From: a virus
IMG/VR virus record: IMGVR_UViG_3300030333_002570
Location: 1-64,000 of that record
Reading direction: 5' to 3' (one strand)
Length of the DNA: 64,000 nucleotides
How positions within the stretch are numbered: the stretch's first letter is position 1; each line of letters opens with the position of its first letter. Below, piece after piece: positions 8,397 through 59,049 of this stretch. The notes below the pieces were generated by a model that searched no databases, was not told the origin of the DNA, and worked only from the letters and a program-made list of their open reading frames with translations. Position numbers and translations under genes: made by a program.

Positions 8397-8407
8397 TTAT
8401 AAACTGT

Positions 8408-8447
8408 CACAAGGGGAGGTTGCAAGACTTCCCCTTTGTGCTATAAT
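8408..8447 (+). promoter_or_regulatory. Hairpin with embedded sigma70 promoter
   Basis: CACAA-GGGGA (8408-8417) pairs with TCCCC-TTTGTG (8430-8440) with a bulge. The loop carries TTGCAA (8420-8425), followed after 16 bp by TATAAT (8442-8447). The element appears to close the gp32 unit and start the next one in the same 40 bases. No U-tract is present, so terminator activity is uncertain. Confidence 0.7.
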
Positions 8448-8470
8448 ATAAACATATCAAAAGGAGATTC

Positions 8471-45185: not shown

Positions 45186-45228
45186 TCCAGAAAATACGTG
45201 ATAGACTACATGGGTTGCAGTTATTATC

Positions 45229-45483
45229 ATGCCTACGTTTACACTCACATGCACAGATGAAGATTCTACAGTAACAACTAAAGAGTTTAAATCTGCCTAC
45301 CTACAAGATGTTGTAGAAAAAACAGGAGACTTTCTCAGGGGAGTCGGTTACTATTTTGATGATTTGACTATTGTTAAAGTAGAAGAAACCGAAGAAACTA
45401 TTGAGGATGACTCTTATGAAGAATATGATCCTATTACAGGTACAAATTCTATTATTGATCCTTCATACCTTAATAAAAACTAA
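45229..45483 (+). CDS. Small acidic hypothetical protein, 84 aa
   Basis: It has a beta-rich N-terminus (FTLTCTDEDSTVTTKEFKSA) and an acidic C-terminus (EETEETIEDDSYEEYDP). It is separated from the array by 43 bases without a clear promoter. No domain recognised. Confidence 0.72.
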   Translation: MPTFTLTCTDEDSTVTTKEFKSAYLQDVVEKTGDFLRGVGYYFDDLTIVKVEETEETIEDDSYEEYDPITGTNSIIDPSYLNKN

Positions 45484-45490
45484 AGACTAT

Positions 45491-45531
45491 TAGGCAACTC
45501 ATTGACAATAATGGGTTGCCTATGTTAATAT
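45491..45531 (+). promoter_or_regulatory. Hairpin with embedded sigma70 promoter
   Basis: TAGGCAACTCAT (45491-45502) pairs with ATGGGTTGCCTA (45511-45522), 12 bp including one G-U. The 8-base loop plus one stem base hold TTGACA (45502-45507). A -10-like TAATAT (45526-45531) follows at 18 bp. Confidence 0.7.
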
Positions 45532-45567
45532 ATACAAATGTAGTTCAGAAAAACTGACAGATCACAG

Positions 45568-45759
45568 ATGGGTAAGACTTTTCGCCGAGGTGGTAACGAG
45601 CGAGGTTACTATTCTCCTGGAAAATCATTACGAGACAAACGCCAAAAAGGAACAAATCGAACATCTAAATGGGAGGAATCTTATGACCACAACCAACCCA
45701 AAGGACATAATCACCCTAAAAAAAGAGCAACCACCGAAGAGTTCGGAGGTGACCTATGA
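45568..45759 (+). CDS. Small basic cyanophage protein, 63 aa
   Basis: A charged, arginine/lysine/glycine-rich protein (GKTFRRGGNERGYYSPGKSL, RDKRQKGTNRTSKWEESYD). I recall similar small proteins in other cyanophages but no function. It overlaps the next ORF by 77 bases in another frame. Confidence 0.7.
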   Translation: MGKTFRRGGNERGYYSPGKSLRDKRQKGTNRTSKWEESYDHNQPKGHNHPKKRATTEEFGGDL

Positions 45760-45844
45760 AGATGATGGTCTGGACTATGAAGACCTATATTATGATGATG
45801 CTTCATATGATGGAGTTGAAATAGATTACACAGTACAATACTAA
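45683..45844 (+). CDS. Small acidic protein overlapping the previous gene, 53 aa
   Basis: ATG 45683 follows a GGGAGGA site at 45671-45677. The C-terminus is very acidic and Tyr-rich (YEDDGLDYEDLYYDDASYDG), opposite in charge to the basic protein encoded by the overlapping gene; the two might bind each other. The last base is the first base of the next ATG. Confidence 0.65.
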   Translation: MTTTNPKDIITLKKEQPPKSSEVTYEDDGLDYEDLYYDDASYDGVEIDYTVQY

Positions 45845-46044
45845 TGCCAAGTAAAGATCAATTATCCGTAGATGATAACGAGACTAAAGACCAGAAATGG
45901 AATAGAGGTCTTGATATTTGTATAGAGTCATTTTATAAAGCAGACCACTCTTTGCGTGGATGTGCTCACAATCAACGGTGTTTCTATGAAATGATGGAAA
46001 TACGTGATAAAATAATAGAGTATGCAAAGACTCTAAGGAGATGA
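45844..46044 (+). CDS. Small hypothetical protein, 66 aa
   Basis: A helical polar protein with three cysteines (DICIESFYKADHSLRGCAHN). Embedded in a chain of overlapping small genes. No family recognised. Confidence 0.68.
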   Translation: MPSKDQLSVDDNETKDQKWNRGLDICIESFYKADHSLRGCAHNQRCFYEMMEIRDKIIEYAKTLRR

Positions 46045-46244
46045 TCGGTCTTTACTCACAGTTACTCTCAAAGGATCAAAAAATGATCGTAAAAGATGCT
46101 CTAATCATGTATGTCTGTCAATTACAGAAACAATACTTTAGAGATAATGTTATTCCTATGGATGAATATCATCGTAGGATGGCAGATATTGATGAAATCA
46201 CTGAAAAATTACATTTAAAAGATTTGTATAAACATGACAGTTGA
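46041..46244 (+). CDS. Small helical hypothetical protein, 67 aa
   Basis: It starts MIGLYSQLLSKDQKMIVKDA and continues as amphipathic helices. ATG 46041 overlaps the previous stop by four bases and its end overlaps the oxygenase gene by 11. Function unknown. Confidence 0.68.
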   Translation: MIGLYSQLLSKDQKMIVKDALIMYVCQLQKQYFRDNVIPMDEYHRRMADIDEITEKLHLKDLYKHDS

Positions 46245-46878
46245 AATGTTTACACCTCGTTGGTATTATAAGGGTAAAGTTCCCTTTGAAAACCAACAAG
46301 AGATTGAACGCACCTTTGAAGAGTTTATGGACTTGGAGAAGAACTTTATTAATCCTGATAATATTAATGGTGAACTATTAACATCTTATGGATTACCTAC
46401 TAATCAATCTGCACCTTGGGAAAGGTGGTTAGAGTTTATTAAACCTTGTCTATCTGAAATGGTAGATCAATTAAAACCTAAGAGGGATATAGAAGTAGTT
46501 CCTCAAGAGGCATGGGTTAATCGTTATCAGCAAGGACATTATCAAGAGTACCATTGTCATTCTGTTCAACATTGTAATCTTGCAGCAGTATATTTTTATA
46601 GATTAGAGGGTGGATGTACTAACTTTAAATTCTATAATAATCAACACGCAGCATATAAAGCATGTGGATTAGATGATATGTTTGAGATACCAACAGCAGC
46701 AACTATAACACCTAAAGTACAACAAGGTGATATAATTATATTTCCTGCACATTATCCTCATTTAGTATCACCTAATAAGAGTGACTTTGAACGTATAACA
46801 TTTAGTGCAAACTTTGATGTTGTGCCAGCAAGCAATCTGTCTACTACTAAGCATGGTAAGGACTTAGATCTGATATAA
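46234..46878 (+). CDS. 2OG-Fe(II) oxygenase, stand-alone copy
   Basis: 214 aa, PF13759-like. The metal-binding region reads YQEYHCHSVQHCNLAAVYFY; the distal half has GDIIIFPAHYPHLVSPNKSD and Arg in FERITFSANF. It is outside the main array but only 1 kb downstream of it, next to the nuclease/methyltransferase pair. Confidence 0.84.
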   Translation: MTVEMFTPRWYYKGKVPFENQQEIERTFEEFMDLEKNFINPDNINGELLTSYGLPTNQSAPWERWLEFIKPCLSEMVDQLKPKRDIEVVPQEAWVNRYQQGHYQEYHCHSVQHCNLAAVYFYRLEGGCTNFKFYNNQHAAYKACGLDDMFEIPTAATITPKVQQGDIIIFPAHYPHLVSPNKSDFERITFSANFDVVPASNLSTTKHGKDLDLI

Positions 46879-46901
46879 TAGGATTGAGTTCAAAGATAGT
46901 T

Positions 46902-47369
46902 ATGAAATTGCGACCAACCAAGCAAGATGTGATCTTGAATCATACTTACACTTTCAAGTGTGATGCTACATTCGGTACACTATCTAAGGAGAGAGTTTAT
47001 AAATTATTCACAGATGGTAGAAGGGCATCAGGATTCTTAGAACTACAGTTAGAAGATTGGTTTGAAGGTCTTGAATTTGTAGATGGTAAAGGATATGACC
47101 ACATCAATCATTTGGTGGAGGGTCAACTGTATGATGCTAAATGTTTTACTAGACATGGTGCTAAATTCTGTTCATCAAAATATTTGGGTGTGGGTAGATC
47201 ATTAGATGTTAAAGAGCATGAAGCACACGCAGAAAATATAATTTATATTTTTACAGATGTAGTATCATTTCCTGAAGTAAGAGTTAGATTTGTAAAAGGA
47301 TCAGATTTAATTCAAACTTATAAAAAAGGTTCGATTCCATTTTCTCATAGAGATGATTTATTTGAATGA
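46902..47369 (+). CDS. Possible restriction-type nuclease paired with a DNA methyltransferase
   Basis: 155 aa from ATG 46902. The middle shows VEGQLYDAKCFTRHGAKFCS, then SKYLGVGRSLD: a Glu plus Asp-x-Lys arrangement and a GxGR segment that could be a PD-(D/E)XK nuclease core. It overlaps the following methyltransferase gene by 17 bases, as many restriction genes do. I cannot confirm homology to a restriction family; it may be an unrelated phage protein. Confidence 0.55.
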   Translation: MKLRPTKQDVILNHTYTFKCDATFGTLSKERVYKLFTDGRRASGFLELQLEDWFEGLEFVDGKGYDHINHLVEGQLYDAKCFTRHGAKFCSSKYLGVGRSLDVKEHEAHAENIIYIFTDVVSFPEVRVRFVKGSDLIQTYKKGSIPFSHRDDLFE

Positions 47370-48141
47370 TTGTATCGCAGGTATGCGACACTTAGATGAT
47401 GAATGTGTTGATGCTATTGTTACATCACCACCTTATAATCTAAACATTAAGTATAACAAATACAACGATAAAAAACCAAGAGATAAGTATATCTCATGGA
47501 TGAAAGATGTGTTTGTTGAATGTAAACGTGTACTGAAAGATGATGGTCATCTATTTGTTAATATGGGATACTCAAATGTAGATCCTACGATAGGGTTAGA
47601 GGTCATGTTTGCAATTAAAAATACATATAATTTGCAAAATAATATAGTTTGGGTTAAGTCTATTCATGTAAATAACAAGACAAGTGGACATTTTAAACCT
47701 ATTAATAGTAAACGCTATTTGTGTCCTACTTGGGAGAATTTGTTTCACTTTACCAAAGATGGTAATGTAGAAATAGATAGACTATCTGTTGGTGTTAAGT
47801 ATGAATATTATGAAGCAAATATTCGTGGTAATAATACGATTGAGAACAAACCTAATTTAAGAGATAAAGGTAATACTTGGTTCATACCATATGAGACTAT
47901 TAATAGTAAAGAATTGCGTGGTAAACATCCTGCTACTTTCCCAGTTAAATTAGCAGAGGATTGTATCAAATTAACAGGTATAGATCGTGGTGTAGTTCTT
48001 GATCCTTTTATGGGAACAGGTAGTACTGGAGTAGCAGCAAAGAATTTAGGTTGGAGATATATTGGATTTGAAATAGATGAAGATTATGTTAAATTTGCTG
48101 AAAATAGGATAAATGGGGGGTTGACTTCCATATTAAATTGA
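47353..48141 (+). CDS. Site-specific DNA methyltransferase, beta-type
   Basis: 262 aa. The catalytic motif IV TSPPYN is at residue about 24, before the AdoMet-binding motif LDPFMGTGSTGVAAKNLGWR near the C-terminus; this order defines the beta class of N6-adenine or N4-cytosine methyltransferases. A lysine-rich target-recognition region lies between. It may protect phage DNA against host enzymes or against the neighbouring nuclease. The 3' end contains the next promoter. Confidence 0.93.
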   Translation: MIYLNDCIAGMRHLDDECVDAIVTSPPYNLNIKYNKYNDKKPRDKYISWMKDVFVECKRVLKDDGHLFVNMGYSNVDPTIGLEVMFAIKNTYNLQNNIVWVKSIHVNNKTSGHFKPINSKRYLCPTWENLFHFTKDGNVEIDRLSVGVKYEYYEANIRGNNTIENKPNLRDKGNTWFIPYETINSKELRGKHPATFPVKLAEDCIKLTGIDRGVVLDPFMGTGSTGVAAKNLGWRYIGFEIDEDYVKFAENRINGGLTSILN

Positions 48142-48149
48142 TATATAAT
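48121..48149 (+). promoter_or_regulatory. Sigma70-type promoter
   Basis: TTGACT (48121-48126), 17 bp and TATAAT (48144-48149) lie across the end of the methyltransferase gene, 79 bases before ATG 48228. The 5' leader (about 48156-48227) shows no strong structure. Confidence 0.8.
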
Positions 48150-48227
48150 ACTGACAAAGAAATTCGTGGAAGATACACCAATCGGAAGCAATTTCAAAAG
48201 TTAAACTAAACTTATCGAGGACATATT

Positions 48228-49361
48228 ATGTCGAAAGCACTAGAGGTGGGACAATGGTATACTTTACCTGGAATCCCAGATGTAGAAATAGCGGTATTAA
48301 TTACCAAAGCATTTTTAAAGTATCCTGAGTGGATAACTCAGAGAGATACAGAGAACAGACTTAAGAAGAAAGGTGTTATAGATCACCTAAGAAAACTATT
48401 TCCTACTCATCATATTGTAGCAGTTGGAGAATTAACTGAACAGGATGATTGGGAAGATAAAGATGGTAATAAGGAAGTATATGAAGCAGGTCATACTTGG
48501 AGACTTGATGCTAACACAAGAGCAAAAGTATGGGAAAGAGGTTTAGTTGATGAACTTCCTAAAGGTGTACTAGCAGTTAAGTTTAAGGGTAAAACTTTAA
48601 AAGATATAAGGAATATTTACTGGGCATTTGATAACCCAACAGCAGCAGAGTTAGCAGCAGAAGTTATTACTGGATGTCTTAAATCTCTTGGTATAGAGTT
48701 ACTAACTAAGAAGTTTAGGGATGGACAATTTGTAACTGCATTATCATATTGTTGTAAATTTGATGCACCAGATGTATATGGTACTAAAGGATTATGGTCT
48801 GAACCTGATGATAATTCAGTAACTATATCTGAATACAAAAGAACTCAAACTTTACATGCAGTTAGAGATTATGCTGATACAATTAAGGCAGTTGATGAAC
48901 TATTATCTAAGACTGGAATTGTACCATCTTTCGATCAAACATTTATAACAGCACTATTCTTATTCCATAGAAAGTACGGTTGCTTTGATGATAATGTAAC
49001 TAACCTATGTTTAAACCTTACAGGTAGACTTAAGGATGAAGATGGTGAACAGTTATTAATAGCAACTGCACCAAATCCAAGTGCTAAGTTAAATGCTACT
49101 GCATGGATTGATAGGGAAAATAACAGATCATTCTCTAATTTTCAAGAGCAATGTGTTATTAAAGACAGATCTAAAATGGAAGGTTTCTATCAAGGAGTTC
49201 CATTCTTTACCTACTGGTTATCAATAGCATCACAAAATGGTCTTAAGCATAGACAAAATAAAGGTGCAAAAGGTGGTTATACCAACTGGTTTGAAAATAC
49301 ATTCCTTAAGATTAATAAAAGAGAAGTGGTTGAAAAACTAGAGAAATCACTGTCAATCTAG
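48228..49361 (+). CDS. Hypothetical protein with a ParB/Srx-like N-terminal motif, 377 aa
   Basis: The segment GHTWRLDANTRAKVWERGLV near residue 87 resembles the GNTR/GxxR box of ParB/Sulfiredoxin-type nucleases. After it comes a long helical part (NPTAAELAAEVITGCLKSLG) and a C-terminal domain with basic helices. It has its own early promoter and a TCGAGGA-type ribosome-binding site. It could act on DNA or bind a partner protein; the family is not confirmed. Confidence 0.7.
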   Translation: MSKALEVGQWYTLPGIPDVEIAVLITKAFLKYPEWITQRDTENRLKKKGVIDHLRKLFPTHHIVAVGELTEQDDWEDKDGNKEVYEAGHTWRLDANTRAKVWERGLVDELPKGVLAVKFKGKTLKDIRNIYWAFDNPTAAELAAEVITGCLKSLGIELLTKKFRDGQFVTALSYCCKFDAPDVYGTKGLWSEPDDNSVTISEYKRTQTLHAVRDYADTIKAVDELLSKTGIVPSFDQTFITALFLFHRKYGCFDDNVTNLCLNLTGRLKDEDGEQLLIATAPNPSAKLNATAWIDRENNRSFSNFQEQCVIKDRSKMEGFYQGVPFFTYWLSIASQNGLKHRQNKGAKGGYTNWFENTFLKINKREVVEKLEKSLSI

Positions 49362-49364
49362 AAA

Positions 49365-49407
49365 CTGTCCACTAAATGCCCCATTTCATCCTGATCTGGG
49401 GTATATT
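49365..49407 (+). promoter_or_regulatory. Candidate promoter of the GTGTC/CCCC cassette class
   Basis: CTGTCCACTA (49365-49374), CCCC (49379-49382) and TATATT (49402-49407) are spaced as in the cassettes at 52.1, 53.5, 54.7 and 56.8 kb. CCCCA also pairs with TGGGG (49398-49401 region) to form a short hairpin. It precedes ATG 49428. Confidence 0.55.
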
Positions 49408-49427
49408 AATATTGTTGAGAAATTCAA

Positions 49428-49613
49428 ATGAAATTCTTTTCTGCCAAGACACAAATCTATGGCATCAAAAAAGCACTCAAAGCGAGTGAACGTGATCCAT
49501 TTCTTTATAATGAAGAAGAGATCATCAAACTAAAAACTTCTCTTCGCAAATTACGTGAAGAGCAAGAACAAACCCGACAAATTCAAAACGGAGGATTTGG
49601 TTACGATGTCTAA
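49428..49613 (+). CDS. Small basic helical protein, 61 aa
   Basis: KFFSAKTQIYGIKKALKASE, then charged helices (IIKLKTSLRKLREEQEQTR) that could form a coiled coil. It overlaps the next gene by eight bases. No known family. Confidence 0.68.
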   Translation: MKFFSAKTQIYGIKKALKASERDPFLYNEEEIIKLKTSLRKLREEQEQTRQIQNGGFGYDV

Positions 49614-49746
49614 AAGACTATTTGTTCCAAAAGTTGAATACGATGAAAACTTTGACAACTGTCAAGAGGAAGAAGACAGTTGGGTATCCTCAGTTTTAGG
49701 AACTGAAGATGATGCAATCTATGACGTACTTTCGGAGATTCAGTAA
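49606..49746 (+). CDS. Small acidic protein, 46 aa
   Basis: ATG 49606 is preceded by GGAGG at 49590-49594. The sequence is acidic (DENFDNCQEEEDSWVSSVLG). It ends in a one-base overlap with the next ATG. Unknown function. Confidence 0.62.
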   Translation: MSKRLFVPKVEYDENFDNCQEEEDSWVSSVLGTEDDAIYDVLSEIQ

Positions 49747-49937
49747 TGACAATTCCAAAGAAATTGCAACTTCTACTTGATGCTTATGATGATGGAGTTC
49801 TTCCTGAAGATTTACAAGTAGAAATGTGTCAGTTTATGATAGATTGTGACCTACACAATGAGTTGACACAGTATCAACAACTCTGCGATTATTACATTGC
49901 AGAAGGTTTATGTTATGAAGTATGTTTTGATTCCTGA
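49746..49937 (+). CDS. Small hypothetical protein, 63 aa
   Basis: A compact helical protein (PKKLQLLLDAYDDGVLPEDL) with four cysteines. It is coupled to both neighbours by one-base overlaps, forming a four-gene operon. No domain recognised. Confidence 0.7.
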   Translation: MTIPKKLQLLLDAYDDGVLPEDLQVEMCQFMIDCDLHNELTQYQQLCDYYIAEGLCYEVCFDS

Positions 49938-50299
49938 TGAATACTTACGAAGTCTTATTACAACGTGACATTGGCATAAACAAGACAGTTTATGTACACG
50001 ATTGTTATTATGAAGATGAAGCAAGATTACTTGCTGAGTCTCAATATGGACTTCCAGTTTTAAGAGTATTATATAAGGGATCTTCTAATAATAATACTAT
50101 GAATGATGTTCCTGAACCCTATTATGGTGGCACTTGGTTATCAACAATAGGGTCAGGAAATAGTTCTATTACTAATATATTAGCATTGCCATTTGGTATC
50201 TTAATTATTATATTATTAATAGAATTTTGGTGGTGGTTTGTTGCTATAACTTGCATAGGAATTGGGTGGAGAACTTATCAGTATATCAAGGACGATTAG
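49937..50299 (+). CDS. Membrane protein, 120 aa
   Basis: The N-terminal 50 residues look like a small cytoplasmic domain (YEVLLQRDIGINKTVYVHDC). Two adjacent hydrophobic stretches follow (ILALPFGILIIILLIEFWWW, FVAITCIGIGWRTYQYI) at about 80-115. Role unknown, possibly a modifier of the host cytoplasmic membrane. Confidence 0.75.
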   Translation: MNTYEVLLQRDIGINKTVYVHDCYYEDEARLLAESQYGLPVLRVLYKGSSNNNTMNDVPEPYYGGTWLSTIGSGNSSITNILALPFGILIIILLIEFWWWFVAITCIGIGWRTYQYIKDD

Positions 50300-50426
50300 G
50301 CATTTATTTTTGTTAATTAGATGTCGAAATTCTAACATTATTATACTAAATAGTGGTAGAATTAAGGATAGCAAGATGAACTGAAAACTCTCTTGGTTAT
50401 GATTCAAAAGTTAAAAGGAGTTGGAT

Positions 50427-50594
50427 ATGTCACACAATTTAATATCTTCAAATCATTTAGCACAATGGAAACATGGTGTAAACGAAATTCCTGAATATCA
50501 GGATCAATTACTGGACGATTACTTTGAGTGCTTAATTGATTGTGAAGACGATCAATCTAGTTGTAGGAGGGTATGTAAGGAAATTCTTATGTGA
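50427..50594 (+). CDS. Small hypothetical protein, 55 aa
   Basis: It has the ribosome-binding site AAAGGAG at 50414-50420. The protein starts SHNLISSNHLAQWKHGVNEI and contains four cysteines in the acidic C-terminal half (CLIDCEDDQSSCRRVC), which might bind a metal. A terminator follows. The 127-base gap before it shows no clear promoter. Confidence 0.68.
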   Translation: MSHNLISSNHLAQWKHGVNEIPEYQDQLLDDYFECLIDCEDDQSSCRRVCKEILM

Positions 50595-50613
50595 CTATCT
50601 TACTAAATTCTAT

Positions 50614-50652
50614 AAAAAGAGGGTTTACAAACCCTCTTTTTTATTGTATAAT
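50614..50652 (+). terminator. Terminator hairpin carrying a promoter in its loop
   Basis: A 13-bp stem, AAAAAGAGGGTTT (50614-50626) with AAACCCTCTTTTT (50629-50641), makes an intrinsic terminator. TTTACA (50624-50629) straddles the loop and TATAAT (50647-50652) follows after 17 bp, so the same DNA is also a sigma70 promoter for the downstream genes. Confidence 0.85.
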
Positions 50653-50674
50653 ACTCTATGAATACATCATTAAT

Positions 50675-50746
50675 ATGTGGTACATTATTTTTTGGACAAG
50701 TCTTATTATGTTCATACTTGTTAAAGTAGGTGCATTTAAGAAATGA
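50675..50746 (+). CDS. Tiny hydrophobic peptide, 23 aa
   Basis: WYIIFWTSLIMFILVKVGAF is one membrane helix with two C-terminal lysines. It ends in an ATGA overlap with the following methyltransferase gene and lies right behind a promoter, so it may be a leader peptide. Evidence is only composition and spacing. An overlapping 23-codon frame from 50658 is an alternative. Confidence 0.35.
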   Translation: MWYIIFWTSLIMFILVKVGAFKK

Positions 50747-51708
50747 AAGATACGATATTATATGGTGACTGTCGTCAAACATTACCAGCATTTATTGATA
50801 ACGCACAAATGTGTGTTACATCCCCACCTTATTATGGATTGAGAGATTACGGTGGTAAAAGTGAACAAATAGGACAAGAACAAACACCAGAAGAGTATAT
50901 TGAAGAAATGGTAAATGTCTTTAGGTTAGTGAGAGATAACCTTAAAGATGATGGTGTGTTATGGTTAAACATAGGTGACACATATTATAATTATCGAAGT
51001 GATGGTAATTATCCTAAGCAAACTGTTAGTAAGACTAATCAAGATTTACCCTCATTTTCTCCTGCTAGAGGTAACAAATTAGAGGGGTTAAAGAGTAAAG
51101 ATTTGATCGGTATTCCTTGGATGTTAGCATTTGCATTACGAGCAGATGGATGGTACTTAAGGCAAGATATTATATGGCATAAACCTAATCCAATGCCAGA
51201 AAGTGTAAAGGATAGATGCACTAAAGCACATGAATATATCTTCCTATTAAGTAAAAGTAAGAACTATTATTATGACAATGAAAGTATAAAAGAACCTGCT
51301 AAAGATTGGGGAACTAGAGATAGAACTAATGGCAAATATCATAATGAAGGAACAGGATTAACACCTCATTCTGGACTCACTAAATCATATCCAACAAAGA
51401 ATAAACGTAGTGTATGGAGTATAACAAACAAACCATATAAGGGATCACATTTTGCTACTTTCCCACCTGATCTAATTGAACCTTGTATATTAGCAGGTAG
51501 TAGAAAAGGTGATATAGTATTAGATCCATTTATGGGTAGTGGCACGACTGCTATGGTAGCAAAGCAACTAGGACGGTATTATATCGGATGTGAACTGAAC
51601 GAGGACTATCGAGAATTGATAGAAAAACGTGTGACAGTCAACAAAGTGGAGCAAAATGCTTCACATTCTGAAACAAATGGGTTGATTGACCTATTGGGTA
51701 CTGTATAA
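50743..51708 (+). CDS. DNA methyltransferase, beta-type, second copy
   Basis: 321 aa. Motif IV is VTSPPYYGLRDYGG, the AdoMet motif is VLDPFMGSGTTAMVAKQLGR, and the spacer has IIWHKPNPMPESVKDRC. The motif order is of the beta class; TSPPYYGLRDYG is typical of a common phage/bacterial group of N4-cytosine or N6-adenine enzymes. Not closely similar to the one at 47353. The gene end includes a sequence like the promoter cassettes (51629-51649). Confidence 0.93.
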   Translation: MKDTILYGDCRQTLPAFIDNAQMCVTSPPYYGLRDYGGKSEQIGQEQTPEEYIEEMVNVFRLVRDNLKDDGVLWLNIGDTYYNYRSDGNYPKQTVSKTNQDLPSFSPARGNKLEGLKSKDLIGIPWMLAFALRADGWYLRQDIIWHKPNPMPESVKDRCTKAHEYIFLLSKSKNYYYDNESIKEPAKDWGTRDRTNGKYHNEGTGLTPHSGLTKSYPTKNKRSVWSITNKPYKGSHFATFPPDLIEPCILAGSRKGDIVLDPFMGSGTTAMVAKQLGRYYIGCELNEDYRELIEKRVTVNKVEQNASHSETNGLIDLLGTV

Positions 51709-51709
51709 T
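51682..51709 (+). promoter_or_regulatory. Sigma70-type promoter
   Basis: TTGATT (51682-51687), 16 bp and TATAAT (51704-51709) overlap the end of the methyltransferase gene, 27 bases before ATG 51736. Confidence 0.65.
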
Positions 51710-51735
51710 ATGGGGGTAGTCAACTTTCAGCACTT

Positions 51736-52107
51736 ATGCCAGTTAAGTCTCCAACAAGGAAAACCGCAGCAACAGCAGCAACTCCTCGTAAAAGACGCAC
51801 TCGTAAGACAACCGCTTCAACACCTAAAAAGGTTTCTATAAATAAGTCACAATCTGCAAAAGTTATTGTGACTGAAGAACCAAAAGTTGAAGTAAAAGTA
51901 GACACAAAACCTACTCAAATTGCACCACCAAAACCTAATCTTTCTCGTGAAGATTACATTGCTGATATAAAAGCAAGATGGGCAATTCATACCTATGAAG
52001 TTAATGCCCTCGGTGCAGATTTAGTTAAAGGTTATAATCTAGTAACACCATATCTTCAAAAAGGTGTTACTTATGTCAAAGACTCTTACAAGAGAGCATT
52101 TGCATAG
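51736..52107 (+). CDS. Histone-H1-like basic protein, 123 aa
   Basis: The first 60 residues are rich in Lys, Arg, Ala, Thr and Pro (SPTRKTAATAATPRKRRTRK), like eukaryote H1 tails and some bacterial nucleoid proteins. The C-terminal 45 residues form a helical domain (LSREDYIADIKARWAIHTYE). It probably binds DNA or another acidic polymer. A terminator follows. Confidence 0.78.
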   Translation: MPVKSPTRKTAATAATPRKRRTRKTTASTPKKVSINKSQSAKVIVTEEPKVEVKVDTKPTQIAPPKPNLSREDYIADIKARWAIHTYEVNALGADLVKGYNLVTPYLQKGVTYVKDSYKRAFA

Positions 52108-52129
52108 ACCAGATTACAAAGTGTCTACT

Positions 52130-52153
52130 AAGACCCCACAAGGGGTCTTTTTT
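52130..52153 (+). terminator. Intrinsic terminator
   Basis: AAGACCCC (52130-52137) pairs with GGGGTCTT (52142-52149) around ACAA, followed by TTTT. It is preceded by GTGTCTACTA (52121-52130). CCCC to TATATT (52158-52163) is 24 nt, so a cassette-type promoter may overlap. Confidence 0.88.
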
Positions 52154-52166
52154 ATTGTATATTAAA

Positions 52167-52232
52167 AGAGTGGAAGGCAAGGGTGAGCGACCCCAGTGGA
52201 AAATGCTCTTTAAGTCGAACCTCTTCCACACT
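52167..52232 (+). ncRNA. Structured leader of the helicase gene
   Basis: AGAGTGGAAG (52167-52176) pairs with CTTCCACACT (52223-52232), nine of ten positions. Inside, GGGT (52181-52184) pairs with ACCC (52190-52193). A third arm between 52196 and 52222 is not well defined. The element is followed by AAGGAG and the TTG start at 52256. It could be an untranslated regulatory leader. It is too short and lacks an anticodon arm to be a normal tRNA. Confidence 0.5.
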
Positions 52233-52255
52233 CAACATTATTAAGGAGATCGTCT

Positions 52256-53506
52256 TTGACAGACACATTACGACCTCATCAACAACGTGCTTATGATAAA
52301 ATGATTGAGCATGATTGTGGACAAATTGTTATACCTACTGGTGGTGGTAAAACATATATTATGATTGAAGATTGCAAGAGGTTAGTAACAACAACACCAC
52401 GCAATCCTCAGACTATTGTTGTAGTTGCACCACGTATATTACTTGCTAATCAGTTATCAGAAGAGTTTGAATCTGAGATTGATAATGTTAAGATAGCACA
52501 CGTACATTCTGGTGAAACTCATCATTTTAGCACCACAGATTGTAGGGATTTAACACATTGGAATAGCACTAATCCTCAGTATGATAAGTTAATCTTTACC
52601 ACTTATCATTCACTACATAGAGTATTAGATAGTATGGTAAATATTGATAGGATATATTTTGATGAAGCACATAATGGCACTGGTAAAAACTTCTTTAAGC
52701 AGATAAAGAGAGTTGCTAAGTTAAACATAGCAAGATACTTCTTTACTGCTACACCACGCATTTCACGCTCTAAGAATAACATTAGTGCGGAACGTGGTAT
52801 GAACAATGCGGAAATATGGGGTGATATATTAGAACAAACAGCAGCACAAGAGTTAATAGATAGTGGCACTATTTTATTCCCTAAAGTTATACCATTTGAG
52901 ACAGATAGAGAGAGGACTAAGTTAAATGCACATGAAGTAGATAGTGATAACTTAAAGGACATATTGACTAGCATAACTGATACAAACCCTAAGGTACTTG
53001 TGTCTGCTCCAACAACAAGAATACTATGGAATATGCTCTCACAAACTGATATTAAAGATTGGTTAATTGAGCGAGAGTATAACATTATGCACATCACATC
53101 TAAGCATGGTGCTATCATTAATGGTAAGAAAGTTGGTAGAGAAGAGTTCTTCAAGACACTAACATTGTGGGGTAAGGATGATACTAAGAAGATGATAATC
53201 TTCCATTATAGTATACTATCAGAAGGGATAAATGTTCCAGGTTTGACTCATTCAGTTATGCTAAGAAATCTACCTAATATTGAAATGGCACAAACAATAG
53301 GTAGAGTAATTAGAATACATCAAAAGGATGTAGATGATATGAATTCAGGTAAAATACCTGCTGGTGCTTATAACTTATACCATAAAAGTTTTGGTCAAAT
53401 ATGTGTGCCAATATCAGGCAAATATGGTAAAAGAATAGCAGATAGACTACAATCAGTCGTATCGTATATCTTTATAGAGGGTATTCCACCACTTTCATAT
53501 GTTTAG
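52256..53506 (+). CDS. SF2 DNA/RNA helicase, UvsW/DEAD-type
   Basis: 416 aa with Walker A PTGGGKT at residues 27-33, Walker B FDEAHNG, motif III FTATPR and motif VI QTIGRVIRIHQ. The N-terminal LRPHQQRAYDKM is a Q-motif-like element typical of restriction/UvsW-type helicases. The start is TTG 52256 with AAGGAG at 52243-52248. It may act in recombination or branch migration. The stop overlaps the first promoter cassette. Confidence 0.9.
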   Translation: MTDTLRPHQQRAYDKMIEHDCGQIVIPTGGGKTYIMIEDCKRLVTTTPRNPQTIVVVAPRILLANQLSEEFESEIDNVKIAHVHSGETHHFSTTDCRDLTHWNSTNPQYDKLIFTTYHSLHRVLDSMVNIDRIYFDEAHNGTGKNFFKQIKRVAKLNIARYFFTATPRISRSKNNISAERGMNNAEIWGDILEQTAAQELIDSGTILFPKVIPFETDRERTKLNAHEVDSDNLKDILTSITDTNPKVLVSAPTTRILWNMLSQTDIKDWLIEREYNIMHITSKHGAIINGKKVGREEFFKTLTLWGKDDTKKMIIFHYSILSEGINVPGLTHSVMLRNLPNIEMAQTIGRVIRIHQKDVDDMNSGKIPAGAYNLYHKSFGQICVPISGKYGKRIADRLQSVVSYIFIEGIPPLSYV

Positions 53507-53564
53507 TGTGACAGTACAAGTAGTGTCTACTATTTTCCCCATTGTCCCTAAAATCGGTTATTAT
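53505..53564 (+). promoter_or_regulatory. Promoter cassette 1 (GACAGTA-N4-TAGTGTC type)
   Basis: The dyad GACAGTA (53510-53516)-CAAG-TAGTGTC (53521-53527) is followed by TTTTCCCC (CCCC at 53537-53540) and TATTAT (53559-53564). No TTGACA at -35. It begins inside the helicase stop codon and precedes ATG 53594. Confidence 0.65.
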
Positions 53565-53593
53565 ATAAGAGTAAACAAATCACAAGGAGTTTA

Positions 53594-53713
53594 ATGAGCA
53601 CTCTATCACAGCAAATTTACGATCAGTTGGTTAATCCAACACCAGTGATAAAGTATTATTTCCTTACACCTTTTTACAAGCAAACTAACAACAAAAGGAG
53701 GAATTCTAAGTGA
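53594..53713 (+). CDS. Small hypothetical protein, 39 aa
   Basis: It has AAGGAG at 53584-53589. The sequence STLSQQIYDQLVNPTPVIKY is followed by a basic end (KQTNNKRRNSK). The tail of the gene carries AAAGGAGG, the ribosome-binding site for the next GTG start, which it overlaps. Confidence 0.6.
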   Translation: MSTLSQQIYDQLVNPTPVIKYYFLTPFYKQTNNKRRNSK

Positions 53714-53838
53714 GTACATTACATCATGAGAGCATACTTGAAACATTATTTGAAGAAGTATGCGAAGAGTATCCTCAATTTAGCGAGGAACAATGCGAGG
53801 TTATCGCACAACAACGTTTCGAGGATTTATGCCAATGA
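53710..53838 (+). CDS. Small acidic protein, 42 aa
   Basis: GTG start 53710, AAAGGAGG eleven bases upstream. Helical and Glu-rich (LETLFEEVCEEYPQFSEEQC). It shares a TGA/ATG overlap with the next gene. No known family. Confidence 0.6.
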   Translation: MSTLHHESILETLFEEVCEEYPQFSEEQCEVIAQQRFEDLCQ

Positions 53839-54011
53839 ATAATCTTGATTGTCTATCTGAAGTATTAGAAGACTTCTGCACTAAGTATAACTTAGAGTTT
53901 ATGAGTGCAGATGATCTTTTATACGGTGATTCTGAAGGTAAATTAACAAATTACCAGAGAGATTGGTTAAGAAACTATATCTCTATCTGGGACATTATTG
54001 TAAACTACTAA
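53835..54011 (+). CDS. Small acidic protein, 58 aa
   Basis: ATG 53835 overlaps the previous stop; ATG 53829 is an alternative. The sequence NNLDCLSEVLEDFCTKYNLE is followed by NYQRDWLRNYISIWDIIVNY, with a predicted helix pair. Unknown function. Confidence 0.62.
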   Translation: MNNLDCLSEVLEDFCTKYNLEFMSADDLLYGDSEGKLTNYQRDWLRNYISIWDIIVNY

Positions 54012-54021
54012 GGAGGATTTC

Positions 54022-54240
54022 ATGGCAAAAGTTAAAGAATTTACATACTCATTTCGCATCCTATGTGAACATGACGATGCACCAAATCCTGTTCATTTAT
54101 GTGAAGAAATACAGGCATATTTGAACTCTAATTTAGATTATTATAATGAAGAATTAGGTGAGCATGTTAATGCTGAAGTTACAGGATATAGGGTAGAGAT
54201 AGATAAAATGACACCCTATATTGCTCAAGATGAGTATTAA
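54022..54240 (+). CDS. Small hypothetical protein, 72 aa
   Basis: An AAGGAGG ribosome-binding site lies before ATG 54022. The sequence FTYSFRILCEHDDAPNPVHL, then EIQAYLNSNLDYYNEELGEH, suggests a compact alpha/beta fold. No family recognised. Confidence 0.68.
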   Translation: MAKVKEFTYSFRILCEHDDAPNPVHLCEEIQAYLNSNLDYYNEELGEHVNAEVTGYRVEIDKMTPYIAQDEY

Positions 54241-54244
54241 TTAA

Positions 54245-54463
54245 ATGATAACATTACGCATACATGAGAATAACACAGGCACGATAGATTTCGAGTCCGA
54301 AGAACAATTAGAGGCATGGATTGATGCTCCTAATTATAAACAAGTACAGTGGGAATATACAGAGAAAGATGTATTTCATAGGACATATTTTGTAGAACGT
54401 AACACTAACTCTATTAACCCAACTTGCGAGGACATTAGTAATGCCATCTGGAACAAATCGTGA
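54245..54463 (+). CDS. Small hypothetical protein, 72 aa
   Basis: ITLRIHENNTGTIDFESEEQ opens a beta-rich N-terminus; the rest is mixed. It overlaps the following gene by 23 bases in a different frame. Function unknown. Confidence 0.66.
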   Translation: MITLRIHENNTGTIDFESEEQLEAWIDAPNYKQVQWEYTEKDVFHRTYFVERNTNSINPTCEDISNAIWNKS

Positions 54464-54692
54464 TGCTAATCTAATCATCACACCAAAGACTTCAGCATCT
54501 ATTGAATTAAGTTTTGATCAAATTAGCACTCTATTGTATATAATAGAGGGATATTGTCAAGGTGATGATTACAATCAAGACGATCAATTTGCTAGTGATT
54601 GTGATAACTTAATTGAGATATTAGAGCAAGCAAGTGAAACAATACCATTGGATGATGATCCTCTAATTGATGAATTGAATTACTACAAGTAA
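54441..54692 (+). CDS. Small acidic protein, 83 aa
   Basis: After a short polar start it has the helix SIELSFDQISTLLYIIEGYC and an acidic end (IPLDDDPLIDELNYYK). ATG 54441 lies within the previous gene. It ends two bases before cassette 2. Not recognised. Confidence 0.66.
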   Translation: MPSGTNRDANLIITPKTSASIELSFDQISTLLYIIEGYCQGDDYNQDDQFASDCDNLIEILEQASETIPLDDDPLIDELNYYK

Positions 54693-54693
54693 T

Positions 54694-54757
54694 AGTGTGA
54701 CAGTACGATTAGTGTCACACAATTTTCCTATAATGCCTATAAATCGGGTATTATAAT
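54694..54757 (+). promoter_or_regulatory. Promoter cassette 2 (GACAGTA-N4-TAGTGTC type)
   Basis: GACAGTA (54699-54705)-CGAT-TAGTGTC (54710-54716) is followed by TTTTCC (54723-54728) and TATTAT (54749-54754), with TATAAT overlapping at 54752-54757. It precedes ATG 54783. Confidence 0.65.
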
Positions 54758-54782
54758 AGTATAAACAAATTTAAAGGATTTT

Positions 54783-55262
54783 ATGACTGTTGCAACTGCT
54801 GAATTTAGACAAGAACTTCAAGAGAAGTTAGCAGACAATGTATTACTTTGGACTGAGCAGTTATGTGACAATCTTGAGAAGAATTACTTCAATTATCACA
54901 AGAGAATGATAACAAATAACTCTCAAAGATATACAGAGGGTGAGTTATCAGAGTATGCACAATCTCAGTTAGAAAGTATCAACAATGGCACTGCTAATCT
55001 AATGAAGTTTCGTATACAATCAGGTAAAAAGTACTATAAAATTATACAACAAGATTATGACACTTTCCAAGATAGAAATGAATATAGGGATGGAAGTGTT
55101 CACGCATTTGTTGATAAGAAAACAGGTGAAGTTTATAAACCTGCATCATGGAAATCTCCTGCAAAGCATGTAAGATATGATATGAGAATTATCAAACATC
55201 GTGAGTTTTTACATAACTCAGACAACGTAGATTGGGCAGGTGGTTATCTCTATATGAGATAA
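54783..55262 (+). CDS. Conserved phage protein of unknown function, 159 aa
   Basis: A helical N-terminus (REQLxx-type helices such as VLLWTEQLCDNLEKNYFNYH) is followed by a conserved-looking core KYYKIIQQDYDTFQDR and VHAFVDKKTGEVYKPASWKS, then PAKHVRYDMRII. I recall the second motif in many cyanophage proteins but no function. It is transcribed from cassette 2. Confidence 0.75.
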   Translation: MTVATAEFRQELQEKLADNVLLWTEQLCDNLEKNYFNYHKRMITNNSQRYTEGELSEYAQSQLESINNGTANLMKFRIQSGKKYYKIIQQDYDTFQDRNEYRDGSVHAFVDKKTGEVYKPASWKSPAKHVRYDMRIIKHREFLHNSDNVDWAGGYLYMR

Positions 55263-55302
55263 TCTTCTCTCACTAATTATTACTTTTCATTCCCTTATTA
55301 CA

Positions 55303-55680
55303 ATGGCAATTTATTCACAAAAAGCAAATCCTAACGCAACTAATAGTGAATTAGATGCTAAGGTTATTGTTAAACATCCCAACCTAACTTCACTTCAATT
55401 AGATGAAGTTAGAGACCAATATGCAGAGATAGTTCTTGATAGAATGGACTATAAAGATCTAGAGCAATATGTATATGATTCTCTATCAGATTACTACGGT
55501 AAAATGTCACAAACTGAACTAAGAGAACATATCATCGAAATGGAAAATAGTGGTGATCCCACTGATAACTTATTTGATGAATTAGCAGAGAATGTAACAA
55601 TTAGGGATTTGATGAAAGAGAAAGATAGTGACGAAGATAACACTTGTATGCAAACATTTATTCCAGGATTTCATGACTAA
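55303..55680 (+). CDS. Acidic hypothetical protein, 125 aa
   Basis: It contains DEVRDQYAEIVLDRMDYKDL, then EQYVYDSLSDYYGKMSQTEL, probably all-helical. The pI should be low. It overlaps the next gene by eight bases. No family recognised. Confidence 0.7.
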   Translation: MAIYSQKANPNATNSELDAKVIVKHPNLTSLQLDEVRDQYAEIVLDRMDYKDLEQYVYDSLSDYYGKMSQTELREHIIEMENSGDPTDNLFDELAENVTIRDLMKEKDSDEDNTCMQTFIPGFHD

Positions 55681-55852
55681 TTTAATTCAACAATGGTCAC
55701 AAACTTACTTCACTGATTTAACACCAGAGAAGCATCAAACTAATAATAATTGGTTTGAACTTATGCTCTCTATGTTAACACCAGAGGGTGAATTGTATGT
55801 CCCTTGTTTAAACAAATCATTCAACAAATTAGGGGAAGAAATTAATGACTAA
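55673..55852 (+). CDS. Small hypothetical protein, 59 aa
   Basis: NLIQQWSQTYFTDLTPEKHQ begins the protein; WFELMLSMLTPEGELYVPCL follows. ATG 55673 is chosen for the short overlap with the preceding stop. GGGGAAGAAAT near its end serves the next gene. Confidence 0.62.
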   Translation: MTNLIQQWSQTYFTDLTPEKHQTNNNWFELMLSMLTPEGELYVPCLNKSFNKLGEEIND

Positions 55853-56006
55853 CGTCACAAAGTACACTCGTTCAGGTGTTAATGGGAAGTATATTACATG
55901 CCCTAAATGTCAACAATCAAACAAGGTATTTCACTTTAGTTGGAGTGCATTAACCTGTTTATGTTGCAGAGAAAGTATTAACAAACTCGATTGGATTATT
56001 ACCTAA
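55845..56006 (+). CDS. Small zinc-ribbon protein, 53 aa
   Basis: Two cysteine knuckles, TCPKCQQS and TCLCCRES, about 22 residues apart define a zinc ribbon. It is short, basic and probably DNA- or protein-binding. Overlaps the previous gene by eight bases. Confidence 0.75.
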   Translation: MTNVTKYTRSGVNGKYITCPKCQQSNKVFHFSWSALTCLCCRESINKLDWIIT

Positions 56007-56007
56007 A

Positions 56008-56157
56008 ATGACATACTACACAGTCGAAACTGATCTCTTTACTGTTGACTTTAAGGATCAAATTACCTACCTTGAATGTTTACGAACAGCAGCAGATTTA
56101 GGGGTTAATTTAGATCATTATCTTCTTGAATTTCAAATAGAAGATGAAGAGAATTAG
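56008..56157 (+). CDS. Small acidic protein, 49 aa
   Basis: TYYTVETDLFTVDFKDQITY, then CLRTAADLGVNLDHYLLEFQ. It starts one base after the previous stop. Its TAG lies in the beginning of cassette 3. Unknown function. Confidence 0.62.
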   Translation: MTYYTVETDLFTVDFKDQITYLECLRTAADLGVNLDHYLLEFQIEDEEN

Positions 56158-56228
56158 TGTGACAGTGGACAAAGAGGTACAAGGTCGCTTGATTTTTGCC
56201 CCATTTCATGCGATACTATGTATATAAT
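56156..56228 (+). promoter_or_regulatory. Diverged promoter cassette 3
   Basis: AGTGTGACAGT (56156-56166) continues as GGACAAAGAGG, without the right half of the dyad. CCCC (56199-56202) and TATAAT (56223-56228) keep the cassette spacing of 24 nt; TACTAT (56214-56219) is an alternative -10. It precedes ATG 56251. Confidence 0.5.
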
Positions 56229-56250
56229 CAAGTTTTACGAATTTTTCAAT

Positions 56251-56553
56251 ATGTCAAAATCTCTTTTTTCACAGTCCATCAACCTTTGCGATGACTATCT
56301 AGGTTTCGAGTGGTCAAGAGGTGTAGTCACCTCAATGTTTGACACTTACCGCCGTCAAAACGATTTAGATCCAAATCTTTCAATCTACCACTATGGTAAT
56401 GATCGTTTTGAAGTCAAAACTATGGTTTACGATGATTCAAAAGGTTGCATCATCGGTGACGAGATACATATCGGCACTTTTGATAACATCTTCGATGCTG
56501 AAGATTGTGCTGAAACTTATCTCAAAGATCTACTATTAGACCTCGGTGTTTAA
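56251..56553 (+). CDS. Hypothetical protein, 100 aa
   Basis: ATG 56251 is chosen because an upstream ATG at 56218 lies inside the promoter. The sequence INLCDDYLGFEWSRGVVTSM and the acidic end suggest a soluble mixed fold. Downstream 56554-56595 is T-rich with no clear hairpin. Confidence 0.68.
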   Translation: MSKSLFSQSINLCDDYLGFEWSRGVVTSMFDTYRRQNDLDPNLSIYHYGNDRFEVKTMVYDDSKGCIIGDEIHIGTFDNIFDAEDCAETYLKDLLLDLGV

Positions 56554-56595
56554 TATTAGATCTTTTTTCTTGCTCACTATTTTACATTATTTGTT

Positions 56596-56796
56596 ATGCC
56601 ATCTTTCACAGTTAACAACAAAGATTACTCTCACAAAGAGTTAAATAAGATTTACGATTTCTTCACTCAAGATCAATGGGATGTGATAGATCAGGCACTT
56701 GATTGTTATGCTCAATCTGAAAAATATGTTGGAGTTGTAAACGATACAGGCGAAATTAGAGATGCTATGTATCAACTATTAAGGACAGCATACTAA
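56596..56796 (+). CDS. Small hypothetical protein, 66 aa
   Basis: PSFTVNNKDYSHKELNKIYD, then WDVIDQALDCYAQSEKYVGV. A small alpha/beta fold is likely. It is followed directly by cassette 4. No family recognised. Confidence 0.65.
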   Translation: MPSFTVNNKDYSHKELNKIYDFFTQDQWDVIDQALDCYAQSEKYVGVVNDTGEIRDAMYQLLRTAY

Positions 56797-56855
56797 GTGT
56801 GACAGTACATTTAGTGTCCATATTTTTCCCCTAAGTATCAATTTTCCCTTATAAT
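56796..56855 (+). promoter_or_regulatory. Promoter cassette 4 (GACAGTA-N4-TAGTGTC type)
   Basis: GACAGTA (56801-56807)-CATT-TAGTGTC (56812-56818), TTTTTCCCC (CCCC 56828-56831) and TATAAT (56850-56855). Spacing is the same as in cassettes 1 and 2. It precedes ATG 56882. Confidence 0.65.
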
Positions 56856-56881
56856 AAATGTATACCAAACAAAGAGGATTT

Positions 56882-57163
56882 ATGAACAAAACTTCTAAGA
56901 TCATGCAAAGAATCTTACAGGTTGAGAATTTCCAGAATGTAGCATGTGTATGTGCTAATTGGAAAGAATTCACAGAAGAATTAAGCGAGTGGGGTGTATA
57001 TGGGTGTGCTAAGATAGATTTTGATGATGAAGATCTTGACGTTTCATTATTAGATAGATTCATCAAATCTGAAAATGGATATGAAAGAACTGGTGACGAT
57101 TGGAACCTAATTTATAACAATGGTAAAAACCTAGTTAATAACTTTGGGGGTGTATTCGCATGA
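56882..57163 (+). CDS. Hypothetical protein, 93 aa
   Basis: Start ATG 56882 has AGAGGAT upstream. The sequence KIMQRILQVENFQNVACVCA, then EFTEELSEWGVYGCAKIDFD, indicates a mixed fold with three cysteines. Overlaps the next gene by four bases. Confidence 0.68.
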   Translation: MNKTSKIMQRILQVENFQNVACVCANWKEFTEELSEWGVYGCAKIDFDDEDLDVSLLDRFIKSENGYERTGDDWNLIYNNGKNLVNNFGGVFA

Positions 57164-57396
57164 ATAGTTTAAAAGAATTTGTTGACTATGTTTGGTCATT
57201 TTATAATACTGAAGATGGGTTATATCCTATCGATGGTATAACTAGGCAAGACATTTATGATGCCTTTTATGTGTACAAACACAGATTATTACATGCACAA
57301 AATGATAATTACACTTGGGGATATGGTGATAGTTTAGATAGAGAAAGGGTAAGAGATATAATGCTAGAAAATAACAATTTATCCTGGAGGATTTAA
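57160..57396 (+). CDS. Hypothetical protein, 78 aa
   Basis: A helical, Tyr-rich small protein (SLKEFVDYVWSFYNTEDGLY). GGAGG at 57386-57390 within its end serves the next gene. No family known. Confidence 0.66.
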   Translation: MNSLKEFVDYVWSFYNTEDGLYPIDGITRQDIYDAFYVYKHRLLHAQNDNYTWGYGDSLDRERVRDIMLENNNLSWRI

Positions 57397-57397
57397 C

Positions 57398-57652
57398 ATG
57401 TTTAAAAGTGAAGAATTCGGACGTATTTTCTGGGTTGATGATAACTATGATCTGCAATCATGCCCACAAAATGTTGATGGAACAGGTGATTTTGACTGTT
57501 CTGATTATGTCGAAGACTGGACAGATTGGGAGGGGGTTAGTATAAAGAAATTGCTAGGAATTCACAAGGCATGTATACTTAATAAGAAAGATTACGCTGG
57601 TTCATTAACACTTACAGATGCCCATTTTTCAGGACTAAGTAACAATGAATAG
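57398..57652 (+). CDS. Hypothetical protein, 84 aa
   Basis: FKSEEFGRIFWVDDNYDLQS followed by an acidic middle with Cys and Trp (GDFDCSDYVEDWTDWEGVSI). It starts one base after the previous stop. Unknown function. Confidence 0.66.
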   Translation: MFKSEEFGRIFWVDDNYDLQSCPQNVDGTGDFDCSDYVEDWTDWEGVSIKKLLGIHKACILNKKDYAGSLTLTDAHFSGLSNNE

Positions 57653-58358: not shown

Positions 58359-58660
58359 CAACTATGTGGAAAACTTCCGTTTAATTGTTGATAACTTTAA
58401 ATGGTTAATTAAATCTAGTTGTGTTTACTTTAGTGTGGAAAAACATGTGGAGAAAGTGTTGCCTTAGCACGTTAATTACCGACTTGTCAATAACATTTAA
58501 CAACATGCAATATTCGCCGAGTTACTAACAAGAATTGCCCAGAAATCAGTCAGGGGTTAGTATAAACAATTCATGTGCCAGTGAGGAAAGTGTCCACTAG
58601 TTACTGACAACTACCTGGAAATCATGTATTATAATAGTATAAACAAATTCAGGTTAATTT
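58359..58660 (+). other. Long noncoding gap with DnaA-box-like repeats
   Basis: This is one of the longest gene-free stretches in the window. It holds TGTGGAAAA at 58365-58373 and 58434-58442, and TGTGGAGAA at 58446-58454; the first two match the reverse complement of the relaxed DnaA box TTWTNCACA. GTTGATAAC lies at 58387-58395. The end holds AGTGTCCACTAGT (58589-58601) and a promoter. It may be a replication start, a regulatory region or an entry site for host factors. No ORF of useful length. Confidence 0.45.
58604..58632 (+). promoter_or_regulatory. Sigma70-type promoter
   Basis: CTGACA (58604-58609), 17 bp and TATTAT (58627-58632). The 5' leader after it shares the run TATTATAATAGTATAAACAA with cassette 2. 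It precedes ATG 58661. Confidence 0.65.
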
Positions 58661-58978
58661 ATGAGAGTTATTGAAAAGAACATGTGCAGAGCGATTTCTA
58701 ACAAGAAACCCTTCTCATCTTCCAACACTTCAGTAACATTTTCCGCAGACAATTCTCAAGCATTTGTTTATCTTCACGGCAACCACATTGCAACGGTAAG
58801 TGATAACAATCTTCAAATATTTGATGGAGGTTGGCAATCAAATACCACGAAAAGTAGGTTGAACTCGTTATTAGAAACCTTCACAGGATTAGGCAGAGGT
58901 TTGTATCAACGAAACTGGCAATGGTTCGTACAAAGTAACAACAACCCCTTCTATTCTGGAATGATTTTTAATACTTGA
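58661..58978 (+). CDS. Conserved-type hypothetical protein, 105 aa
   Basis: SNTSVTFSADNSQAFVYLHG, then HIATVSDNNLQIFDGGWQSN and TKSRLNSLLETFTGLGRGLY, then QRNWQWFVQ. A beta-rich front followed by a helix. I recall similar proteins in cyanophages without function. Its stop overlaps a promoter. Confidence 0.72.
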   Translation: MRVIEKNMCRAISNKKPFSSSNTSVTFSADNSQAFVYLHGNHIATVSDNNLQIFDGGWQSNTTKSRLNSLLETFTGLGRGLYQRNWQWFVQSNNNPFYSGMIFNT

Positions 58979-59003
58979 CAAGATAAACAGTTTCTGTTAT
59001 ACT
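58975..59003 (+). promoter_or_regulatory. Sigma70 promoter overlapping a gene end
   Basis: TTGACA (58975-58980), 17 bp and TATACT (58998-59003). The predicted start falls in the 5' arm of the terminator that begins at 59004, so transcripts from here would skip that hairpin. Confidence 0.82.
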
Positions 59004-59029
59004 AGAGGGGTAAATAACCCCTCTTTTTT
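59004..59029 (+). terminator. Intrinsic terminator
   Basis: AGAGGGGT (59004-59011) pairs with ACCCCTCT (59017-59024) and is followed by TTTTT. It ends the transcript of the preceding gene and touches the promoter at 58975-59003. Confidence 0.9.
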
Positions 59030-59049
59030 ATGCCTAATTAACAAATAGT

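Follow-up and report, generated by a model that had tools for sequence, protein, structure and literature searches.

The window analyzed here is the initial 64 kb (positions 1 to 64,000) of the virus record IMGVR_UViG_3300030333_002570, which is 130,092 bases long. It is part of a T4-like cyanomyovirus; all of the 365 phage records that matched its positions 52000-57500 were cyanophages or marine viruses, and its nearest isolate is Prochlorococcus phage P-SSM7, with about 80% identity over the matched parts of the same interval. In the window, as in P-SSM7, S-TIM4 and S-SSM5, a recurrent cassette clusters in a stretch of small open reading frames (ORFs) bounded by the methylase/helicase genes on one side and by the baseplate gene gp25 on the other. 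It consists of a palindrome (dyad), or of its right half, followed at a set distance by a -10 box.

A first-pass annotation had described this cassette at 49365, 52121, 53510, 54699 and 56801 as a GTGTC half-site, a CCCC tract and a -10 box, and these coordinates and spacings hold on the sequence. The gap from (T)GTC to the C-tract is 9, 8, 9, 10 and 9 nucleotides (nt), respectively, and the distance from the first C to the -10 box is 23, 24, 22, 22 and 22 nt. The full dyad GACAGTA-N4-TAGTGTC, claimed for three cases, is present at 53510, 54699 and 56801. In the 130-kb record the pattern GTGTGACAGTA-N2-6-TAGTGTC has three matches, all with N4 exactly, and the looser dyad GMCAST-N6-ASTGKC has five, while the reversed control of each has none. 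A profile built from 56 sites, none of which came from the window, recovered these five places, a diverged copy that had been named at 56156, and two further places at 58573 and 8398 (E values from 1e-13 to 5e-5; matches were counted at E up to 0.1).

The statistics of the dyad and the -10 box were computed on fetched phage loci, which were obtained by two routes. When viral contigs were scanned for the dyad plus CCCC, with the -10 box excluded from the pattern, 62 loci were obtained, and in most of them TATAAT, TATATT, CATACT or a near relative lies about 22-24 nt past the C-tract and is followed by a start codon. Independently, relatives were fetched solely by the protein of gene 54783-55262, and many of their upstream regions again contain a dyad or half-site, often a terminator, and then TATAAT and ATG. 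Composition tables gave the conserved unit as the 24-bp palindrome TGTG(A/C)CA(G/C)TT-N4-AA(C/G)TG(T/G)CACA (TGTGMCASTT-N4-AASTGKCACA). At that stage the fetched phage loci contained 340 non-redundant dyads, versus 10 for the reversed and 0 for the scrambled control. The -10 box peaks at 31-33 nt past the dyad core (48, 76 and 27 sites), compared with about 2 sites per position elsewhere. If transcription starts 7 nt after the -10 box, the dyad centre falls, by arithmetic, at about -53.

We counted 201 sites with the right half-site and a -10 box at the set distance; a pair of scrambled half-sites gave 9 and 11. Two reversed patterns gave 46 and 50 sites; we prefer the scrambled controls because the reversals may overlap real sites. 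The left arm was full in 74 of the 201 sites and matched at 5/6 positions in 84 more, and the dyad was kept between copies whose remaining bases differ. The C-tract behaves otherwise than had been proposed. That is, CCC at -26 to -17 of the -10 box is enriched (24 of the 74 full-dyad sites, against 2.8% by chance), but this is only about a third of the sites, so CCCC is an optional sub-feature marking a subclass and not a defining part. The element has no consensus -35, and the first-pass annotation had noted that no TTGACA occurs; at least four of the six TTGACA positions were matched at 24 of the 74 sites against 15% by chance, a weak enrichment.

Each of 12 Kyanoviridae isolates contained 4-33 profile matches, and the motif is thus conserved in relatives. 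In Syn9 there were 10, at 44774-52994. T4, P-SSP7 (a Prochlorococcus phage of another family) and Ma-LMM01 gave no match, and S-TIM5 gave six weak ones. In P-SSM7 the -10 box lies shortly before a start codon, and the genes downstream are the small hypothetical genes of the 40-45 kb region and those for helicase, cAMP phosphodiesterase, peptidase and cobS.

On the host side, 251 Cyanobiaceae genomes showed no excess of the dyad (19 against 18 for the control). A host regulon was also sought by searching the strict palindrome in 84,980 species and was rejected; the 44 matches were scattered, their neighbour genes were unrelated, and none was titled Prochlorococcus or marine Synechococcus. Two other observations came from bacterial records. 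The strict palindrome was also present on six contigs (L159, L166, L170, L176, L188, L191) of one Pyrinomonadaceae metagenome-assembled genome (MAG), SSF56, mostly in intergenic positions and far above chance per genome; these copies may belong to an unrelated acidobacterial regulon whose site happens to be similar. In a contig titled Flavobacteriales bacterium TMED113 (L200:4382), the palindrome precedes CTATAATAAAGGAGTAG, the arrangement seen in cyanophages, which suggests a phage contig that was placed in a bacterial MAG by binning.

We think it likely that the cassette is a promoter element of the whole family Kyanoviridae, used early in infection. A dimeric protein would bind the palindrome about 53 bp upstream of the presumed start, and host RNA polymerase carrying the main sigma factor would be recruited by the bound dimer to a -10 box that resembles TATAAT and lacks a consensus -35. 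The cassettes are located in the short gaps between the small genes of the hyperplastic region and before a few core genes, and where a terminator lies between the half-site and the -10 box, a single gap could end the upstream unit and start the next one. The earlier description of the class as activator-dependent, with a dimer-binding dyad, agrees with this architecture, in which the dyad fits a dimer and a consensus -35 is lacking; activation as such is what the architecture suggests.

A repressor site would look the same, and the dyad could be an operator for shutting the genes off, placed beside a plain sigma70 promoter. In a promoter scan, sigma70-like sites were no commoner than chance in the region, so that promoter strength cannot be judged from the hexamers alone. 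Furthermore, in several half-site cassettes (P-SSM7 at 1540 and 33454; the window at 8398), a hairpin loop includes a TTGACA-like sequence at 16-17 nt before the -10 box. However, the -35 is lacking in most copies, and repressors usually act by blocking polymerase contacts, which a dyad at about -53 would not reach, being upstream of them. We consider an operator quite improbable.

The dyad might also function as RNA, that is, as a terminator or processing hairpin that ends the upstream transcript, with the neighbouring -10 box a separate element. The dyad indeed adjoins upstream stop codons, and true terminators occur in some cassettes. On the other hand, its mirror positions showed no base-pair covariation: at position 5 there were 27 pairs against 39 expected. 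This was measured on 81 sites in loci selected independently of the motif, although the sites themselves were picked by a regular expression that fixes eight positions. Rfam gave no match, and a hairpin leaves the fixed distance to the -10 box unexplained. An RNA element therefore seems extremely improbable to us. Because the arms do not covary as base pairs, the palindrome is likelier to be read as DNA, by a dimeric protein.

As for the origin of this protein, the lack of a site excess in the hosts and of the site in P-SSP7 favours a phage-supplied factor over a host regulator that has a regulon of its own. Since the host genomes have no excess of the palindrome, the activator may even be carried in the virion. 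A fuller proposal, in which a phage-supplied and possibly virion-carried dimeric activator reads the class throughout the family and cassettes fused to terminators move with their genes as modules, is possible but doubtful. The zinc-finger activator Ogr/Delta (PF04606) was absent from all records tested. The promoters activated by P2 Ogr and P4 Delta have a dyad TGT...ACA centred near -55, no -35 and a sigma70 -10 box, and thus resemble the cassette, but the arrangement there is TGT-N12-ACA, whereas here it is TGT-N18-ACA.

Three other candidates were considered. An NtcA-type site, GTA-N8-TAC (consensus per PMC3037559), was rejected, because the base triplets found at that spacing in the three window dyads do not fit. 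P-SSM7_154, annotated as 'DNA binding protein', is a relative of pyrimidine-dimer glycosylase and was also rejected. The family phrog_385, annotated as 'transcriptional regulator' (76 amino acids; window 4577-4807), is present in all Kyanoviridae tested and was not found in T4, P-SSP7, Ma-LMM01 or S-TIM5. We take it as a lead only, because it has no Pfam domain and any core gene of the family would show the same pattern; none of the proteins considered was a convincing binder. Given the exact palindrome, its position near -53 and the lack of a host excess, the question of the reader becomes a pull-down with a 24-bp probe (TGTGACAGTTNNNNAACTGTCACA). If the activator is supplied by the phage, it would offer a further route, beside MotA and Ogr, for activating the sigma70 polymerase at phage promoters without a -35.

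The first-pass annotation had called the class middle-type, which would mean that an early phage protein binds the dyad and switches the class on. The dyad and the -10 box without a consensus -35 suit such a class; a putative middle-promoter motif was earlier proposed for Syn9 and P-SSM4 (PMC2984593), and T4-like cyanophages have three expression classes (PMC5082946). However, MotA (PF09114) was absent from all 13 cyanophage records tested, including that of the window, while T4 scored, and PMC5780444, citing Doron 2016, states that T4-like cyanophages have neither T4-like middle promoters nor motA/asiA. We regard the middle-type assignment as unlikely; the palindrome promoters are probably early. 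In T4 itself, the MotA box lies near -30 and is not a palindrome at -53. The MotA-dependent middle promoters are like the cassette in having a -10 box without a -35, and need an activator; unlike here, the motA gene is present.

Doron et al. (2016, ISME J 10:1437), working with Syn9 and P-TIM40, reportedly assigned a novel regulatory element, conserved in T4-like cyanophages, to the early genes, and promoters of host-like type to the middle genes; such middle promoters also speak against middle timing of the palindrome class. The palindrome class is probably this early-gene element, to judge from the general description of the latter. Both belong to the same phage family, are abundant and conserved and stand upstream of small genes, and Syn9 carries the palindrome class as well. 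How T4-like cyanophages time their first genes, and how early and middle control work in cyanomyoviruses lacking alt, modA, modB, motA and asiA, has been called unclear (PMC2984593), and the profile should help to predict such transcription units in the genomes of uncultured cyanophages.

Several points weigh against the family-wide early promoter. Besides the likeness to a repressor site, the case for early timing draws on what Doron et al. (2016) reportedly found and on the absence of MotA, and some cassettes stand before cobS or other core genes that could belong to the middle class. A protein that has yet to be synthesized should not be required by early promoters; exceptions would be a protein brought in with the virion, one expressed beforehand from other promoters, or one that the host supplies. 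Furthermore, use of the class is uneven, since P-TIM68 yielded just 4 profile matches and lacks a strict dyad.

The cassettes at 52114 and 8398 possess a stem-loop between the half-site and the -10 box, as do the PeSL (promoter(early) stem-loop) cassettes of other T4-like phages (Arbiol 2010; Comeau 2014; both as cited in PMC4503421). The likeness extends to the setting, because in both systems promoter and stem-loop are fused in short gaps between variable small genes of hyperplastic regions, and gene order differs between relatives at such cassettes. Here, however, the stem-loop occurs only in a subclass and not at 53504, 54693, 56795 or 58572. The 24-bp upstream palindrome is not known to be part of the PeSL definition. 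In the 'ORFanage' region of S-PM2 (NC_006820; L235) we found profile cassettes at 8575, 9854 and 11347-11419, the last of which encloses a stem-loop at 11369-11391 that was already described there, where PeSLs were judged too sparse to explain gene gain (PMC4503421).

The gene order between cassettes is permuted among the window, L070 and P-SSM7. For example, the phrog_9580 gene follows the helicase gene in P-SSM7, whereas in the window it is found 3.3 kb further along, and the similarity begins at the cassette -10 box. This order would fit modular exchange, and the 5' leader sequence is also repeated among cassettes. One might thus suppose that the cassettes are kept mainly as PeSL-like recombination sites that shuffle small genes, with promoter activity secondary. 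Recombination needs identity only, whereas the conserved spacing and -10 box are promoter constraints, and the persistence of the dyad in copies differing at other bases likewise speaks against it. We give recombination as the main function very little chance.

The cassettes of the window are listed in Table 1. The one at 52121 is a terminator-promoter composite, in which the CCCC forms the left arm of a hairpin that resembles a terminator, AAGACCCCACAAGGGGTCTT-TTTT. At 56156, the copy named earlier was recovered, but the -10 box assigned to it, TATAAT at 56223, is probably wrong. The class spacing leads to GATACT at 56212, 33 nt past the dyad core and with TTGATT 17 nt before it, and in the P-SSM7 counterpart (43974) TTGATT and a -10-like box are retained there, but CCCC is missing and there is no TATAAT at the place proposed before.

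Table 1. Promoter cassettes recovered by the profile in the window
Span	Strand	Dyad core or half-site	Other elements	-10 box	E value	Downstream
8398..8461 (half-site with hairpin; overlooked in first pass)	+	AAACTGTCACA	stem AAGGGGAGG...CTTCCCCTT, TTGCAA in loop	TATAAT 8442-8447	1.5e-5	8471-8872 (phrog_767, cAMP phosphodiesterase); same cassette-gene pair in P-SSM7 at 1540
49357..49421	+	right half-site AAACTGTCCAC	CCCC 49379-49382	TATATT 49402-49407	3.9e-6	small ORF 49428-49613 (phrog_711)
52114..52175 (composite)	+	right half-site AAAGTGTC 52118-52125	terminator-like hairpin 52130-52149 and T-run	TATATT 52158-52163	4.1e-6	helicase gene 52256-53506
53504..53580	+	GACAGTACAAGTAGTGTC 53510-53527	TTTTCCCC 53533-53540	TATTAT 53559-53564	2.6e-11	predicted start near 53571; small ORF from 53594
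54693..54770	+	GACAGTACGATTAGTGTC 54699-54716	outer arms TGTGACA/TGTCACA; TTTTCC 54723-54728	TATTAT 54749-54754	1.5e-13	gene 54783-55262 (phrog_818)
56155..56231 (diverged)	+	GACAGTGGACAAAGAGGT 56161-56178	TTGATT 56189-56194	probably GATACT 56212-56217	4.7e-5	
56795..56871	+	GACAGTACATTTAGTGTC 56801-56818	TTTTTCCCC 56823-56831	TATAAT 56850-56855	6e-12	phrog_9580 gene, ATG near 56882
58572..58648 (overlooked in first pass)	+	GCCAGTGAGGAAAGTGTC 58577-58594	no CCCC	TATTAT 58627-58632	5.5e-10	gene 58661-58978 (phrog_554)

Three other places in the window combine related signals in different ways. On the + strand at 811-866, a further dyad, GACACTAATTAAACTGGC (811-828), stands directly before TTGACA, which is followed after 17 nt by TATTAT. 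The distance from this dyad to the -10 box, 27 nt, differs from that of the class, and the TATTAT overlaps TATAAATA, a T4 late-promoter box, so that dyad, sigma70-like and late-like signals are found within about 55 bp. At 50614-50652, the loop of a terminator-like hairpin, AAAAAGAGGGTTTACAAACCCTCTTTTT, contains TTTACA, and TATAAT comes after a further 17 nt; this is a promoter-terminator composite without the palindrome. At 58975-59030, TTGACA-17-TATACT is directly followed by a strong terminator-like hairpin with a T-run (59004-59024); because the hairpin comes right after TATACT, a transcript from this site would end almost at its start.

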